From assembly GCF_027625935.1 (NCBI RefSeq), contig NZ_CP115300.1:7998001-8062000 (forward strand): a DNA stretch of 64,000 nt, in the 5' to 3' direction. Below, one piece after another: positions 56,374 to 62,159 of this stretch. Position numbers and translations under genes: made by a program. Within the stretch, counting starts at the first letter, position 1, and each line of letters starts with the position of its first letter. The notes below the pieces were generated by a model. The model made no database searches, had not been told where the DNA came from, and was given only the letters and a program-made list of their open reading frames with translations. Origin of the DNA: Streptomyces camelliae (lineage in GTDB: Bacteria; Actinomycetota; Actinomycetes; Streptomycetales; Streptomycetaceae).

Positions 56374-56681
56374 CGTGTGCCGCCCCCTTGCGCGTGTGCT
56401 TCCGCGATCCAGTGTGCGCCCCCGTTCGGGACGATCGGTCCCGTCGCGTGCAGTCTGCCCCGAGGGCGCCGAGAGCACCAGTGCACGCGGAGCGCGTGCG
56501 GTCGCCGACCCGGAGCACTCCCGCCAATGCGCCCCCGCCGTTCTCGCACGCGCCCGGTCCCAGGGTGGCTTTGAGTCGCCCAAAGATGCGTTTATGCAGG
56601 TGGGAAGCGGTGTGAAAGATGCCTATGCTCGACGTGCCGACCGCGTCAGCGCCGTCGGCGCCCAGCGTAAGGAGCACCGCC
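56374..56681. other. 308-bp divergent intergenic region
   Basis: No gene is seen. It holds a short inverted repeat CTTTG-AGTCGCC-CAAAG (56569-56585) and an imperfect direct repeat AAAGATGCGTTTATGC/AAAGATGCCTATGC (56583-56598, 56615-56628). Both sit about 55-115 bp before the Cds1 start and may be operator or promoter DNA. Confidence 0.4.
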
Positions 56682-57806
56682 GTGAGCACCACCCCTCAGG
56701 CGCGGACCGGCGCCACACTCGACGTCGACCGCAGTGACGCCGCCTACCGCGACTGGCTGAAAGACGCCGTGCGCAAGGTCCAGGCCGACGCCAACCGCTC
56801 GGCGGACACGCACCTGCTGCGCTTCCCGCTGCCCGAGCGGTGGGGCATCGACCTCTACCTGAAGGACGAGTCGACCCACCCCACCGGCAGCCTCAAGCAC
56901 CGCCTCGCCCGCTCCCTGTTCCTCTACGGCCTCTGCAATGGCTGGATCCGACCCGGCCGCCCCGTGATCGAGGCGTCCAGCGGCTCGACCGCCGTCTCGG
57001 AGGCCTACTTCGCCAAGCTGATCGGCGTGCCCTTCATCGCGGTCATGCCCCGCACGACGAGCGCCGAGAAGTGCCGCCTGATCGAGTTCCACGGCGGCCG
57101 GTGCCACTTCGTGGACGACTCCCGGAAGATGTACGAGGAGTCGGCCCGCCTCGCGGTGGAGACCGGCGGCCACTACATGGACCAGTTCACCTACGCCGAG
57201 CGGGCCACGGACTGGCGCGGCAACAACAACATCGCCGAATCCATCTTCCGCCAGCTTCAGTTGGAGCGGTTCCCGGAGCCGACGTGGATCGTCGCCACGG
57301 CGGGCACCGGTGGCACCTCGGCGACCCTCGCCCGCTACGTCCACTACATGCAGTACGACACCCGGATCTGTGTCGCCGACCCGGAGAACTCCTGCTTCTT
57401 CGAGGGCTGGACCAGCGGCGATCCGGACGTCACCTGCGACTGCGGCTCACGGATCGAGGGCATCGGCCGGCCGCGCATGGAGCCGAGCTTCGTGCCCGGC
57501 GCGATCGACCGGATGATGAAGGTCCCGGACGCGGCCAGCGTCGCCGCCGTACGCTCCCTGGAGCGGGCCATCGGGCGCAAGGCGGGCGGCTCCACGGGCA
57601 CCGGGCTGTGGAGCGCGCTGAAGATCGTCTCCGAGATGGTGGCCGAGGGCCGTACCGGCAGCGTCGTCACCCTGCTGTGCGACCCGGGCGACCGCTACCT
57701 CGACAAGTACTACTCCGACGCCTGGCTCGTGGAGCAGGGTCTGGACATCACGCCGTACACGGCGGCGATCGAGGCCCTGCTGTCGACGGGTGTCTGGCCG
57801 GACTGA
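56682..57806 (+). CDS. cds1: Cds1-like PLP-dependent L-cysteine desulfhydrase
   Basis: A 374-residue fold-type II PLP enzyme. The Schiff-base lysine is in [20 protein letters not shown]. The phosphate loop is [17 protein letters not shown], and [12 protein letters not shown] and [16 protein letters not shown] follow. This closely resembles, in my recollection, the mycobacterial Cds1 (Rv3684), which releases H2S, pyruvate and ammonia from L-cysteine. GTG at 56682 is chosen over ATG at 56619 because AAGGAG lies eight bases upstream and the homologous start is near. It is convergent with the SRPBCC gene. Confidence 0.88.
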
Positions 57807-57819
57807 ACGCGCGGGCGGG

Positions 57820-58293
57820 TCAGCGGGCCGGTGAGCCCAGTCGGCGGTCCAGTGCCGCGACCGCCTGACGGACGGACCGTCCGACGCCCGGCCGGATGAG
57901 CCGGGACACCGTGCGGAAGGCCGCCGTACCGTCGAGGGCGAAGGTCATCCGCACCCGGGTGCCGGTACCCGCCGGGGCCAGCCGCCACTCCTCTACCCAG
58001 GCGCGGGTGCCCGGGATGTTCGTCACGTCGACCCGGTACGCGTACACCTCGGGCGCTTTCGCCACCAGCACCGTCTCCTGGAAGCGGATGCCGCCGCGCA
58101 GCCGTACCTCACGCCCGCCCTCGGCCGGCCGGGCGGAGGCCACCGCCGGGAACCATGCGGGCCAGCCGGGCACGTCCTCGGCGAGGGCGTGGAAGACCGC
58201 CGCCGGGGCGGCGGCCATGTCCCGCGTGAACACCAGCCGTACCGGCGCGCCGTCGACGAACTCCGGCCCGACCGGGCGCAGACGCTGCGGCAT
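57820..58293 (-). CDS. SRPBCC (START-like) family protein
   Basis: A 157-residue hydrophobic-ligand-binding protein. RLVFTRDMAAAPAAVFHALAED, GWPAWFPAVASAR and WVEEWRLAPAGTGTRVRMTF match the polyketide cyclase/SRPBCC helix-grip fold. It would bind a lipid or aromatic ligand or act as a chaperone; no catalytic residue is assigned. ATG at 58293 has GAGGGGG upstream. Confidence 0.85.
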   Translation of the reverse strand: MPQRLRPVGPEFVDGAPVRLVFTRDMAAAPAAVFHALAEDVPGWPAWFPAVASARPAEGGREVRLRGGIRFQETVLVAKAPEVYAYRVDVTNIPGTRAWVEEWRLAPAGTGTRVRMTFALDGTAAFRTVSRLIRPGVGRSVRQAVAALDRRLGSPAR

Positions 58294-58361
58294 GACGCGA
58301 ACCCCCTCGTGAAGTCCCGTGCGGAAGCGGGGCGTTGCGGGGCAGGGTAGCTGACGGGCTG

Positions 58362-59204
58362 TCAGATGTCCTCGTCCGCTTCGGGCTCGGGTTCGGGTTC
58401 GCCCGCCACGATCAGCCGCGGCAGATGCTCCGAGATCTCCGTGCGCGCCTCGGCCGGCAGCCCCGCGTCGGTGACGAGCGTGTGCACCTGCTCCAGCGCG
58501 GCGAACGAACTCAGGCCCACCGTGCCCCACTTGGTGTGGTCGGCGACCACCACGACCCGGCGCGCGGAGTGCACCAGCCGACGGTTGGTCTCGGCCTCCG
58601 CGAGGTTCGGCGTGGACAGCCCCGCCTCCACCGATATGCCGTGCACACCGAGGAAGAGCAGATCGAAGTGGAGGGCGGCGATCGCCTGGTCGGCGACCGG
58701 GCCCACCAGCGAGTCCGAAGGGGTGCGCACCCCGCCGGTCAGCACCACCGTCGCCGCGCCCTGCCGCTGGCCCGAGGTGCGCTGCGCCGCGTGAAAGACG
58801 TCCGCGACCCGCACCGAGTTCGTCACGACGGTCAGATCCGGCACCTCCAGCAGGTGCTGCGCGAGCGCGTACGTCGTCGTACCGCCGGACAGAGCGATCG
58901 CCGTCCCCGGCGTGACCAGCCGGGCCGCGGCCCGCGCGATGTCCTCCTTGGCGGTCAGCTCCAGACCCGACTTGGCCTCGAACCCCGGCTCATGGGTGCT
59001 GGCCTCGACCACCGGCACCGCACCGCCGTGCACCTTCTCCAACATGCCCTGGCGGGCGAGGGAGTCCAGATCCCGGCGCACGGTCATGTCCGACACGCCG
59101 AGCTTGCGGGTCAGCTCGTTGACCCGCACACCGCCCCGGCGCCGGACCTCGTCCAGGATCAGGGCGCGGCGCTGCTCCGCGAGGAGGTTCTGATTCTCGC
59201 TCAC
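58362..59204 (-). CDS. DeoR/GlpR-family transcriptional regulator
   Basis: A 280-residue regulator. The HTH is ALILDEVRRRGGVRVNELTR followed by KLGVSDMTVRRDLDSLARQG. The sensor domain contains ALSGGTTTYALAQHL and VVVADHTKWGTVGLSSFA. The C-terminus EPEPEPEADEDI is an acidic tail. GTG at 59204 has GGAG six bases upstream; the longer frame to 59252 is not needed. It is divergent from the large membrane hydrolase gene; the sugar phosphate ligand is unknown. Confidence 0.9.
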   Translation of the reverse strand: MSENQNLLAEQRRALILDEVRRRGGVRVNELTRKLGVSDMTVRRDLDSLARQGMLEKVHGGAVPVVEASTHEPGFEAKSGLELTAKEDIARAAARLVTPGTAIALSGGTTTYALAQHLLEVPDLTVVTNSVRVADVFHAAQRTSGQRQGAATVVLTGGVRTPSDSLVGPVADQAIAALHFDLLFLGVHGISVEAGLSTPNLAEAETNRRLVHSARRVVVVADHTKWGTVGLSSFAALEQVHTLVTDAGLPAEARTEISEHLPRLIVAGEPEPEPEADEDI

Positions 59205-59408
59205 GTACGCTCCGGTCCTTTCGCCGCCAACGGTCCGACACGCCCGGCACACCGGCTTCGACCAGGAGATTCCGTACGACCGGAGGTGCGCGGGCGTCCC
59301 ATCTTTTCACGGGTGGGTACCGGTTGCGCCACCCGCCTGTCACGAAGCGCACACGCCACTCGGGTCTCCGCTGTTCCCGTCCGTTGTCACACGGATCGGG
59401 GAGATTCC

Positions 59409-62159
59409 GTGACGAGCGGTGTGCGGCGCCGGTGGAGCGGAGATCCTGATGCCCGCATCGACTCAGGCCTTCGGGCGCGTCACGGGGGTGCGACGACAGT
59501 GGACCGCGCGCAGGACCGCCCCATCGGGCGGCGGACGGGCACACACGACGAACAGCAGACCGATCTGGCGGCCGGCGACACCGCCCCGGACACCGACCGG
59601 ACCGGCAGCGGTGCGGGGAAAGAGAGTGACCGGACACGCGTGGGTGCCGGGGCGGGGGCCGACCGCACGGATCCGGGTGCCGGGACCGACAGCGAGGGCA
59701 CGGGTACGGGTGCGGGGACGCAGACCCGGCGGACGAGCACCGGTGCCGGGGCGGGAATCGAGCGTATGGGTGCGGGTGCCGGGAAGTGGACCGAACGGGC
59801 GGATACGGGTGCCGGGGCGGGGGTGGAGCGTACAGGTACGGAGCCCGAGGCGCGGACCGGGCGGGCGGAGCCGGATGCGGGGCCGGCGGCCGGTCGTAAG
59901 GGGCTCCAGCCCGAGTCCGAGCTGGAGCTGCTGGTGCACGGGGTCGGTGGCACCACGCCCGAGAAGATGCTCGGCGATCCGCGCACGGTCCGGATCACCG
60001 GTGACGACACGGCCGCGGTCTTCCGGCGCGCGGCCGACGCCGGCCGCCGCAAGGGGGCACGCGGCGAGCCGGTGCAGGAGGCGTACGTCTGGTGCAACCT
60101 GACCTCCGGCGACAGCAGCCGCGCCCTGTGGCTCTTACTGCTGCCGTTCATGGTGGTCAACCTCGCCCACTGGATGCGCCCCGCCACGACCGGCCGGCCG
60201 CGCGCCGTCCGCCTGTACGGCCTCCTCGTCCGCCTGACCGCCCTCACCCTGACGGTGCTGCTGGTGGCCGCCGCCTGCGAGGTGGCGCTGGACCTGGTGG
60301 CCTGGCAGTGTGCGGGCGTCCACGACTGCGCTCGCCGCCACTCCTGGCTGACCTTCTCCGCCGCCGGAGCGCCCGGCGGCGACGGCGGCTGGTGGAGCCT
60401 GCCCGGGCGCCGGCTCGCGCTCGCCGCGCTGGTTCCGGCCGCGCTGACCCTCCTCCTGTGGTATCTCTCGCGCCGCACCTGGAGCGCCTACGAGTCGCAC
60501 CGGCCCATGGACCGCGACCCCGAGCCGGAGACCGACGGCAGCGCGCTGGCCCGGCCCGGCTTCTGGTACGGGCGCCGCCTGGTGGCCCGGCTGCGCGCCG
60601 CGCACACCGCGGCGGCCCTGCTGACGGTGGCCGCCGCCGTCGTGACCCCGGCGGCCCGCTACGACCACCGGCCAGGCGGTCCCGCGGCCCTGAACGCCCT
60701 GAGCTGGCTGCTGACCGCGGCCCTGCTGGCCTGGGCGGCCGCGGCGGTGGGCGTGGTCTGCCGCCGGGGCCGCAGCGAGAACCGCCTCGACCGGCGACTC
60801 GACCGGCATCTCGTACGCCGGCTGCCGCTCGGCGCGCTCGGCCTGCTGCTGCTCACCGCTCTGTACGCCGGCTGGTCCCGGCCCGGCTGGCACTCCACCG
60901 GGCGGCTGCCCGGCGACCCGGCCTTCGGCGCCCTGATGCTGGCCCAGGGGCTCCTCATCATCGCCCTCGCCGTCGTCGCGCGGAACCTGCACCGCCGGAG
61001 CCCCGACCGGCGCGCCGGGATGCGCGGCCTCGGCGGTCCGGCGGTCGCCCTGCTCGCCTGTGCGCTGGGCGGTGTGATGTCCGGCGGGGTCGCCCAGCGC
61101 GTCGCCGGCTGGCTGTCCGGCACCGGCGGCCTGCCCGCCGGTCCGCCCGTGCTGCTGACCTGGCAGGCGTCCACCATCCCGCCGGTTCTCGCGGTCCTGC
61201 TGCTCCTCGCCGTCCGGCTCGGCTCCGATGCCGCCCGGGTCGCCCGCGCCGAACGCGGCCGGATCCGCCACGAGCACCCCGGCGAGCCCGAGGACCCCGG
61301 CCGCACCCGGGCCATCGCCCATGTCCGGGCCATGGCCACCCTCACCGACCGGGCGCCCCTCGTCGTCGCCGTACTCACCGCCACCACCTTCGTGCTCGGC
61401 GCCCTCGCCCTTGCCGGTGCCATGGCCACCGGCAAGACACCCGACGGAGCGGCCCGCCGCACCTACGACGTCCTGCGGACCGCCGCCGACACCTCGCAGG
61501 CGCTGGGCTCCTGGCTGGTCGGGTTCGGCTTCCTGCTGTTCGTGACCTGGGGCCGGCGCGCCTACAAGGACGCCTCGGCCCGGCGCACCATCGGCATCCT
61601 CTGGGACGTCGGCACCTTCTGGCCGCGTGCCGCCCACCCCTTCGCGCCCCCGTGCTACGCCGAGCGCGCCGTACCCGACCTGACCTGGCGGATGGCGACC
61701 TGGACGCAGCGCACCGGAGGCCGGCTCGTCCTCTCCGGGCACTCGCAGGGCAGCGTCCTGGCCGCGGCCGCCGCCTGGCAGCTGACCCCGTCGGCACGCA
61801 AGCGGATCGCCCTGCTGACCTACGGCTCTCCCCTGGAGCGCCTCTACGGTCGCTGGTTCCCCGCCCATTTCGGGCCGCCCGCGCTCGCCGCCCTGCACCG
61901 CGACGTCGCCTGCTGGCGCAACCTCCACCGCCGTACCGACCCCATCGGCGGCCCCGTCCGCGTCCCCGACGACGACACCGCCCCCGAGGTCGACCACGCC
62001 CCCTTGCGGGACCCGCTCGCCTACGGCCGCACGCCCGACCATCCCCTCCCGGCGCCCATCCTCGGCCACTCCGACTACCAGGCGGACCCTGTCTTCGCCC
62101 GGGAACGCGCCCGCTTGCTGAGCCGACTGCGCCCAGAGGTGCCGGGACAGCGAAGTTGA
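59409..62159 (+). CDS. Large membrane protein, alpha/beta-hydrolase fold split by a transmembrane insertion
   Basis: A 916-residue protein from GTG 59409 with GGGGAG upstream. Residues 50-165 are Gly/Thr/Ala-rich repeats of GAGAGIERTG type. Residues 173-190 (ELELLVHGVGGTTPEKMLGD) give an HGxGG oxyanion motif. Then comes a roughly 500-residue region with about 10 membrane helices. After it, VLSGHSQGSVLAAAAAW holds the nucleophile elbow S779, D844 lies in RRTDPIGG and H887 in LGHSDYQADP. This order matches a Ser-Asp-His hydrolase whose core strands flank a membrane domain. The enzyme role is inferred; the substrate could be a lipid. It is divergent from a DeoR regulator. Confidence 0.75.
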   Translation: MTSGVRRRWSGDPDARIDSGLRARHGGATTVDRAQDRPIGRRTGTHDEQQTDLAAGDTAPDTDRTGSGAGKESDRTRVGAGAGADRTDPGAGTDSEGTGTGAGTQTRRTSTGAGAGIERMGAGAGKWTERADTGAGAGVERTGTEPEARTGRAEPDAGPAAGRKGLQPESELELLVHGVGGTTPEKMLGDPRTVRITGDDTAAVFRRAADAGRRKGARGEPVQEAYVWCNLTSGDSSRALWLLLLPFMVVNLAHWMRPATTGRPRAVRLYGLLVRLTALTLTVLLVAAACEVALDLVAWQCAGVHDCARRHSWLTFSAAGAPGGDGGWWSLPGRRLALAALVPAALTLLLWYLSRRTWSAYESHRPMDRDPEPETDGSALARPGFWYGRRLVARLRAAHTAAALLTVAAAVVTPAARYDHRPGGPAALNALSWLLTAALLAWAAAAVGVVCRRGRSENRLDRRLDRHLVRRLPLGALGLLLLTALYAGWSRPGWHSTGRLPGDPAFGALMLAQGLLIIALAVVARNLHRRSPDRRAGMRGLGGPAVALLACALGGVMSGGVAQRVAGWLSGTGGLPAGPPVLLTWQASTIPPVLAVLLLLAVRLGSDAARVARAERGRIRHEHPGEPEDPGRTRAIAHVRAMATLTDRAPLVVAVLTATTFVLGALALAGAMATGKTPDGAARRTYDVLRTAADTSQALGSWLVGFGFLLFVTWGRRAYKDASARRTIGILWDVGTFWPRAAHPFAPPCYAERAVPDLTWRMATWTQRTGGRLVLSGHSQGSVLAAAAAWQLTPSARKRIALLTYGSPLERLYGRWFPAHFGPPALAALHRDVACWRNLHRRTDPIGGPVRVPDDDTAPEVDHAPLRDPLAYGRTPDHPLPAPILGHSDYQADPVFARERARLLSRLRPEVPGQRS
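59640..59880 (+). repeat. In-frame GGTGCCGGGGCGGG-type repeats in the hydrolase N-terminus
   Basis: Degenerate copies of GGTGCCGGGGCGGG followed by -GAGCGTA- or -GACCG- encode GAGAG-ERT-type peptide repeats. The segment precedes the conserved HGVGG region and is likely disordered. Confidence 0.7.

Follow-up and report, generated by a model that had tools for sequence, protein, structure and literature searches.

The 64,000-nucleotide stretch analysed here, called the window below, comes from Streptomyces camelliae (contig NZ_CP115300.1, positions 7,998,001 to 8,062,000, forward strand). Near its right end lies a gene for what we judge, with moderate confidence, to be an integral-membrane serine hydrolase whose discontinuous α/β-hydrolase core closes at the inner membrane face. 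In this proposal, roughly the first 70 residues of the conserved part would supply the oxyanion strand and strand β4, and the last ~190 residues would supply the nucleophile, the acid and the histidine. The β4–β5 crossover, where helix αB is located in ordinary α/β-hydrolases, would be occupied by a membrane domain with some ten helices. The reading frame (59409–62159, plus strand) runs for 916 residues with no internal stop and ends with TGA at 62157–62159. The genome holds a single copy of the gene. Coordinates of all features are collected in Table 1.

An earlier note on this DNA had described an HGVGG motif (H177–G181), a GHSQG motif with S779, and the residues D844 and H887 as parts of one hydrolase fold interrupted by membrane helices. 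These elements were found at the places it gave once the coordinates were checked, and nucleophile, acid and histidine, all conserved, follow each other in the order of the α/β-hydrolase superfamily. H177 and S779 are separated by 602 residues. Conservation was evaluated in an alignment of 320 rows, mostly Streptomyces, comprising the query, 239 database proteins (from best-120 lists) and 80 of 574 confirmed loci. The 80 loci were found via the pattern F[WF]PR..HP, and the conservation of this pattern in them is a selection effect. S779, D844 and H887 are identical in all 319 rows that cover them, one partial protein lacking the region. The triad is also invariant in a 19-row alignment (query and 18 database proteins) and in seven of seven rows of a divergent set from the phylum (25–37% identity to its first row). 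Because the three residues are identical in both the 319 covering rows and the seven divergent ones, the sequences indicate that the observation is not chance. The split characterises the family as a whole, and homologues with the same split do exist: in 291 rows the distance from G178 to S779 ranges from 397 to 829, with a median of 609. Eleven distant members, six of them already within the seven-row alignment, keep the serine and the histidine in 11/11 cases and the aspartate in 10/11; the sole exception to triad conservation is a glutamate in one of them (L117, discussed below).

The H177 column of the 320-row alignment contains 290 histidines, one arginine, one valine and 28 gaps. Of these gaps, 22 belong to gene models that start at Met 187, and six to models that start later or are fragments. 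The 22 models (among the 239 database proteins, e.g. P0024, P0083 and P0167) begin at the internal methionine of MLGDP, MLDDP or MLNDP, past the oxyanion strand, and are probably misannotated. Automated gene calls that drop this strand would conceal the split from annotation. A second, divergent full-length copy occurs in four of 101 genomes of the genus (G203, G258, G161 and G278). In the divergent paralogue of G161 (L017), PGIGL replaces HGVGG and AQSMG replaces GHSQG, with the triad kept.

The predicted structure points to one fold. The model shows a single confident core which matches solved α/β-hydrolases over most of the domain, and whole-hydrolase alignments to solved structures run across the insert; by this modelling, the split-core reading of the earlier note is supported. 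A core of ~160 residues, beginning with the oxyanion strand and ending with the last helix, aligns end to end with minimal lipases and cutinases. S779 (S619 in the 756-residue numbering, which is used below for the membrane part) lies after β5 between a strand (612–618) and a helix (620–630), and its predicted place is thus in the nucleophile elbow that had been anticipated.

The window protein scored above cut-off in none of the family libraries searched (Pfam, NCBIfam and PADLOC). Lipase class 3 (PF01764) reached 14.6 bits against a gathering score of 22, in the elbow region only, and PGAP1 (PF07819) was not among the Pfam families at E≤1, where HMMER filters may hide weak matches. Likewise, no Pfam family passed its cut-off when ten relatives or proteins of the sister group described below were scanned alongside the window protein, and no NCBIfam family did so for five of them; Tle3, DUF2243 and DUF4079 scored weakly, below cut-off, for relatives. 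A profile search of Protein Data Bank sequences hit PAD4, EDS1, cutinases and a feruloyl esterase weakly and in the elbow region (best E 0.0094), and also returned membrane-protein noise. HGVGG and GHSQG could be unrelated motifs that merely resemble a hydrolase and share no core: both are brief and frequent patterns, and Pfam and NCBIfam are silent. This explanation also draws on the N half: used alone, it has no significant profile match in the sister group, and joined to the C half, none in the contiguous relatives. The confident model, the alignments spanning the insert and the conservation of both motifs argue against it; it is already disfavoured, and we find it scarcely credible.

Hydropathy averaged over 68 homologues resolves ten strong hydrophobic segments and a weak one (79–96), close to the earlier estimate of about ten helices between the motifs. 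With ten passes, the density of lysine and arginine is 0.19 per residue for loops on the side of the C-terminus and 0.07 for the rest, alternating loop by loop, and loop 98–114 and the C-terminus fall on the positive side. The membrane side was assigned from the same charges, which makes alternation and sidedness one piece of evidence, not two. It is this charge bias that argues for an even number of passes with both halves in the cytosol. Seven of the 12 best-conserved columns in the membrane part fall within the weak segment (LWLLLLPFMVVNLAHW); it is probably an interfacial helix on the inner membrane face that joins the core to the membrane. If this segment, which is hydrophobic, were an eleventh pass, the same enzyme could have an outward-facing site or could hold its halves differently; a simple method counts 11 segments in three of ten single relatives. 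However, eleven passes would place the halves on opposite sides of the membrane, contrary to the predicted single core, and the charges alternate regularly with ten, so we regard this variant as very improbable.

In the superfamily, the serine attacks an ester or thioester carbonyl and histidine and aspartate relay protons. In the enzyme proposed here, the Ser-Asp-His triad would hydrolyse an ester or thioester, and the oxyanion would be held by backbone amides near V179 and Q780. Because both halves would be cytosolic, the active site would close at the inner membrane face. Given this placement, the substrate would reside in the inner leaflet, most likely as an acyl lipid or lysolipid, and the membrane domain would serve as a bilayer anchor and as a lateral path of substrate access. 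If the core can form only after folding of the membrane domain with its roughly ten helices, assembly of the enzyme would be tied to membrane insertion. The very design of such a split core would position the active site at the surface of the lipid.

The membrane domain could also be a true transporter or channel, with the hydrolase processing or trapping arriving cargo, for example an ester cleaved on entry into the cytosol. The domain alone folds confidently (predicted local distance difference test 89.8, predicted template modelling score 0.91), and conservation extends to a small number of its polar or charged columns (T122, D135, E202 and H239, of which T122 and H239 occur in 24 of 24 non-redundant rows). 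Foldseek returned no solved fold for the domain at E≤0.001. The earlier suggestion of a fused transporter-like domain is not supported by the analysis, and we consider the transporter explanation unlikely.

Several observations weigh against the membrane-hydrolase reading. The idea of a lipid substrate draws only on where the site lies and on its fold. A Foldseek search found no match at E≤0.001 for the core, perhaps as it is split. Simple segment counts in the ten single relatives vary from 9 to 11 and, alone, leave the pass number unfixed. No match was seen in ten of the 101 genomes sampled from the genus (nine of the 98 of good quality), and therefore the gene is probably dispensable. Among 18 loci of other families, no neighbour in the top 14 clusters is widely kept. 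Lastly, L117 (genome G352, same phylum) has a glutamate in place of the catalytic aspartate, with TEP where others have TD or SD; the surroundings of the acid position are altered (WHHLFGMTEPFAF), and serine and histidine are kept.

Another explanation is a membrane sensor or scaffold that retains the hydrolase fold without catalysis. The enzymatic role is a prediction, and the paralogue L017 has lost both the HGVGG and the GHSQG wording. Yet the triad is present in every covering row and in L017 itself. Glutamate can serve as the catalytic acid in the α/β-hydrolase superfamily, and that of L117 could still act in this way. A role as sensor or scaffold thus appears improbable.

The family of the proposed split hydrolase has a sister group, reached through one locus (L114) that led to 35 further database proteins. 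One of these, from Gemmatimonadaceae (P0274), is partial and lacks the N-terminus. A full-length member was found in a single record of the plasmid search, in the betaproteobacterium Cupriavidus pinatubonensis (WP_220631949.1, P0277). It has the layout of the window protein, with an HGV motif, a hydrophobic middle, HSQG, GDYxGR and AHTxY following each other; its sequence shows a WADLS segment, roughly ten hydrophobic segments by a rough count, GDYVGR and AHTHY, and 596 residues between the histidine of the HGV motif and the serine. In the 36 rows of the group, the serine and the aspartate are found in 36/36 and the histidine in 35/36. In contrast, the position of the HGV histidine, H in the window family, is alanine in 26 of 36 rows, H in seven and proline in two. 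The C halves of the two groups are homologous (hhalign probability 99.5, E 3.6e-23). For the N halves, the alignment is confined to the surroundings of HGVG (probability 2.9, 28 of 35 usable), and no sequence homology between the membrane parts was detectable by hhalign (probability 4.0, 34 of 36 used); N halves and membrane parts left out of these tests are those that did not fit the search pattern. Among viral contigs, six pattern matches contained no relatives of the sister group.

Contiguous relatives are also present in the phylum. In L115 and L116, the region from nucleophile to acid matches the C half of the window protein (hhalign probability 97.6 and 93.3, respectively), but there is no insert: only 142 and 171 residues separate the histidine from the serine. 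The N halves of both did not align with the window family. L116 (538–2658, plus strand) combines a Trypsin_2 domain with its contiguous hydrolase-like region.

From these sequences, the simplest history would be that a membrane domain was inserted into a compact soluble hydrolase. Insertion may have occurred once with later divergence, or twice. Repeated insertion is considered because the two groups have the C half and the divided layout in common, whereas no sequence kinship between their membrane parts can be detected. A broader idea, which we put forward tentatively as something less than an even bet, is that the β4–β5 crossover of bacterial α/β-hydrolases is an insertion site for whole polytopic membrane domains, perhaps used repeatedly, and that these proteins represent a widespread unnamed architectural class. 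If this is true, the connectivity of the catalytic fold would itself include the bilayer domain.

The start of the gene differs from the one given earlier. P0002, the nearest relative (98% identical across the query region), starts with MDRAQDRPIGRR; this corresponds to the window protein from residue 31 on, and for this reason GTG 59499 is probably the true start rather than GTG 59409. The low-complexity N-terminus pointed out in the earlier note is real, but as a trait of this gene: it is encoded by a tandem repeat whose 33-bp period spans 59642–59841 with 65% matches, a 66-bp reading extending to 59883. Of the 18 other rows in the 19-row alignment, 17 have a much shorter leader, so the N-terminal repeat looks like a local expansion.

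Table 1. Features of the hydrolase gene and its neighbours, in window coordinates
Feature	Position	Strand	Basis or remark
Coding sequence, likeliest start GTG 59499 (886 amino acids); frame as first reported from GTG 59409	59499..62159	+	P0002 start, codon check
Tandem-repeat region, 33-bp unit, 66-bp reading at end; encodes low-complexity N-terminus	59642..59883	+	
Predicted N-terminal catalytic half: strand β3 with HGVGG, short helix, hairpin, strand β4 (EAYVW)	59910..60113	+	DSSP on model
HGVGG oxyanion motif, H177–G181	59937..59951	+	H177 is H in 290/292 rows reaching it
Weakly hydrophobic conserved helix (LWLLLLPFMVVNLAHW)	60114..60173	+	hydropathy, model
Inserted membrane domain, about ten predicted transmembrane helices	60198..61568	+	hydropathy, model
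Predicted C-terminal catalytic half: WDVGTFWPR segment, β5 and nucleophile elbow, β6, β7, acid and His loops, last helix	61569..62138	+	
GHSQG motif	61737–61751	+	
S779, predicted nucleophile in GHSQG	61743..61745	+	319/319 covering rows; strand-helix junction in model
D844, predicted catalytic acid (TDPIGG), after β7	61938..61940	+	319/319 covering rows; Glu in L117
H887, predicted catalytic His (GHSDY), before last helix	62067..62069	+	319/319 covering rows; model
PALP-family (pyridoxal phosphate-dependent) enzyme	56619–57803	+	
Small Polyketide_cyc2 protein	57823–58296	-	
DeoR-type regulator, just upstream, opposite strand	58365–59252	-	
AAA ATPase fused to right-handed β-helix	62595–63998	-	Pfam AAA, AAA_lid_6, Beta_helix; matching cluster at 62/81 loci

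The family is common. A database search gave 2716 relatives at E≤0.001, and the named ones among the best 120 listed are Streptomyces. The profile matches 91 of the 101 sampled genomes of the genus (89 of 98 good-quality ones), one of them (G274) via a 50-residue piece only. Across the phylum, 23 of 296 genomes match, nine of the same genus and 14 of others. Three of these 14 are not family members: two genomes (G008 and G013) contain the contiguous hydrolases L115 and L116, and one (G078) the sister-group protein L114. Loci are also found in Nonomuraea, Micromonospora, Microbispora, Actinoplanes, Nesterenkonia and an Acidimicrobiia bin. In the plasmid collection, one Nonomuraea record matches the window protein; this record (NZ_LT559118.1, 11.85 Mb) looks chromosomal in size.

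For the gene neighbourhood, open reading frames of at least 90 amino acids that passed a filter on third-position GC content (GC3) were clustered at 81 loci (80 related loci and the window). In Streptomycetaceae, common neighbours are the AAA ATPase, a DeoR-containing cluster (59/81) and the PALP enzyme (51/81). At the 18 loci of other families, the clusters consist of the gene itself, its antisense frames and Nonomuraea-only frames; an ATP-binding-cassette-like frame is present at four of the 18 (Micromonospora and Microbispora), and the DeoR-type regulator is not among the recurrent clusters displayed for them. The neighbourhood across the 81 loci yielded no pathway clue. With matches in most genomes of the genus, relatives outside the phylum and no library family above cut-off in the proteins scanned, the protein would be a common membrane enzyme awaiting its substrate. 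A common family without known function would in that case represent a membrane enzyme design, not a curiosity of a single genome.

How does this arrangement compare with known systems? Narrow phrase searches of the open-licence PubMed Central literature did not find the same arrangement, and we make no claim that it is unpublished. LipA-type lipases and cutinases are soluble, contiguous enzymes. The ~160-residue core of Bacillus subtilis LipA (1isp) and of cutinases can be aligned with that of the window protein end to end; however, they were solved as single small domains, whereas the window protein has ~490 residues (the helix at 76–95 and the membrane domain) between β4 and the nucleophile half.

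Another known system is PGAP1/Bst1, the glycosylphosphatidylinositol inositol deacylase. In its structural description (PMC10761859), it combines ten membrane helices with an α/β-hydrolase lipase carrying a Ser327-His443-Asp407 triad; the lipase is seated on the membrane part and the substrate is a membrane-held acyl lipid. The window protein resembles it in its roughly ten predicted helices and a predicted Ser-Asp-His lipase-type domain. By the same account (PMC10761859), PGAP1 differs in being lumenal and in having jelly-rolls, and its lipase domain is called "typical": the oxyanion residue Asn230 and Ser327 are 97 residues apart, uncut by the membrane domain there. In the window protein, by contrast, H177 and S779 lie 602 residues apart, with predicted hydrophobic helices between them.

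A divided core is known from prolyl oligopeptidase (family S9), a discontinuous α/β-hydrolase made of residues 1–71 and 428–710 with a large second domain (PMC5446394). That domain is a seven-bladed β-propeller and the enzyme a peptidase (PMC5446394), whereas the insert of the window protein is helical, hydrophobic and predicted to be polytopic, and lies between the oxyanion strand and that of the nucleophile. The example of prolyl oligopeptidase demonstrates that a hydrolase can be discontinuous, accommodate a sizeable second domain and still be viable (PMC5446394).
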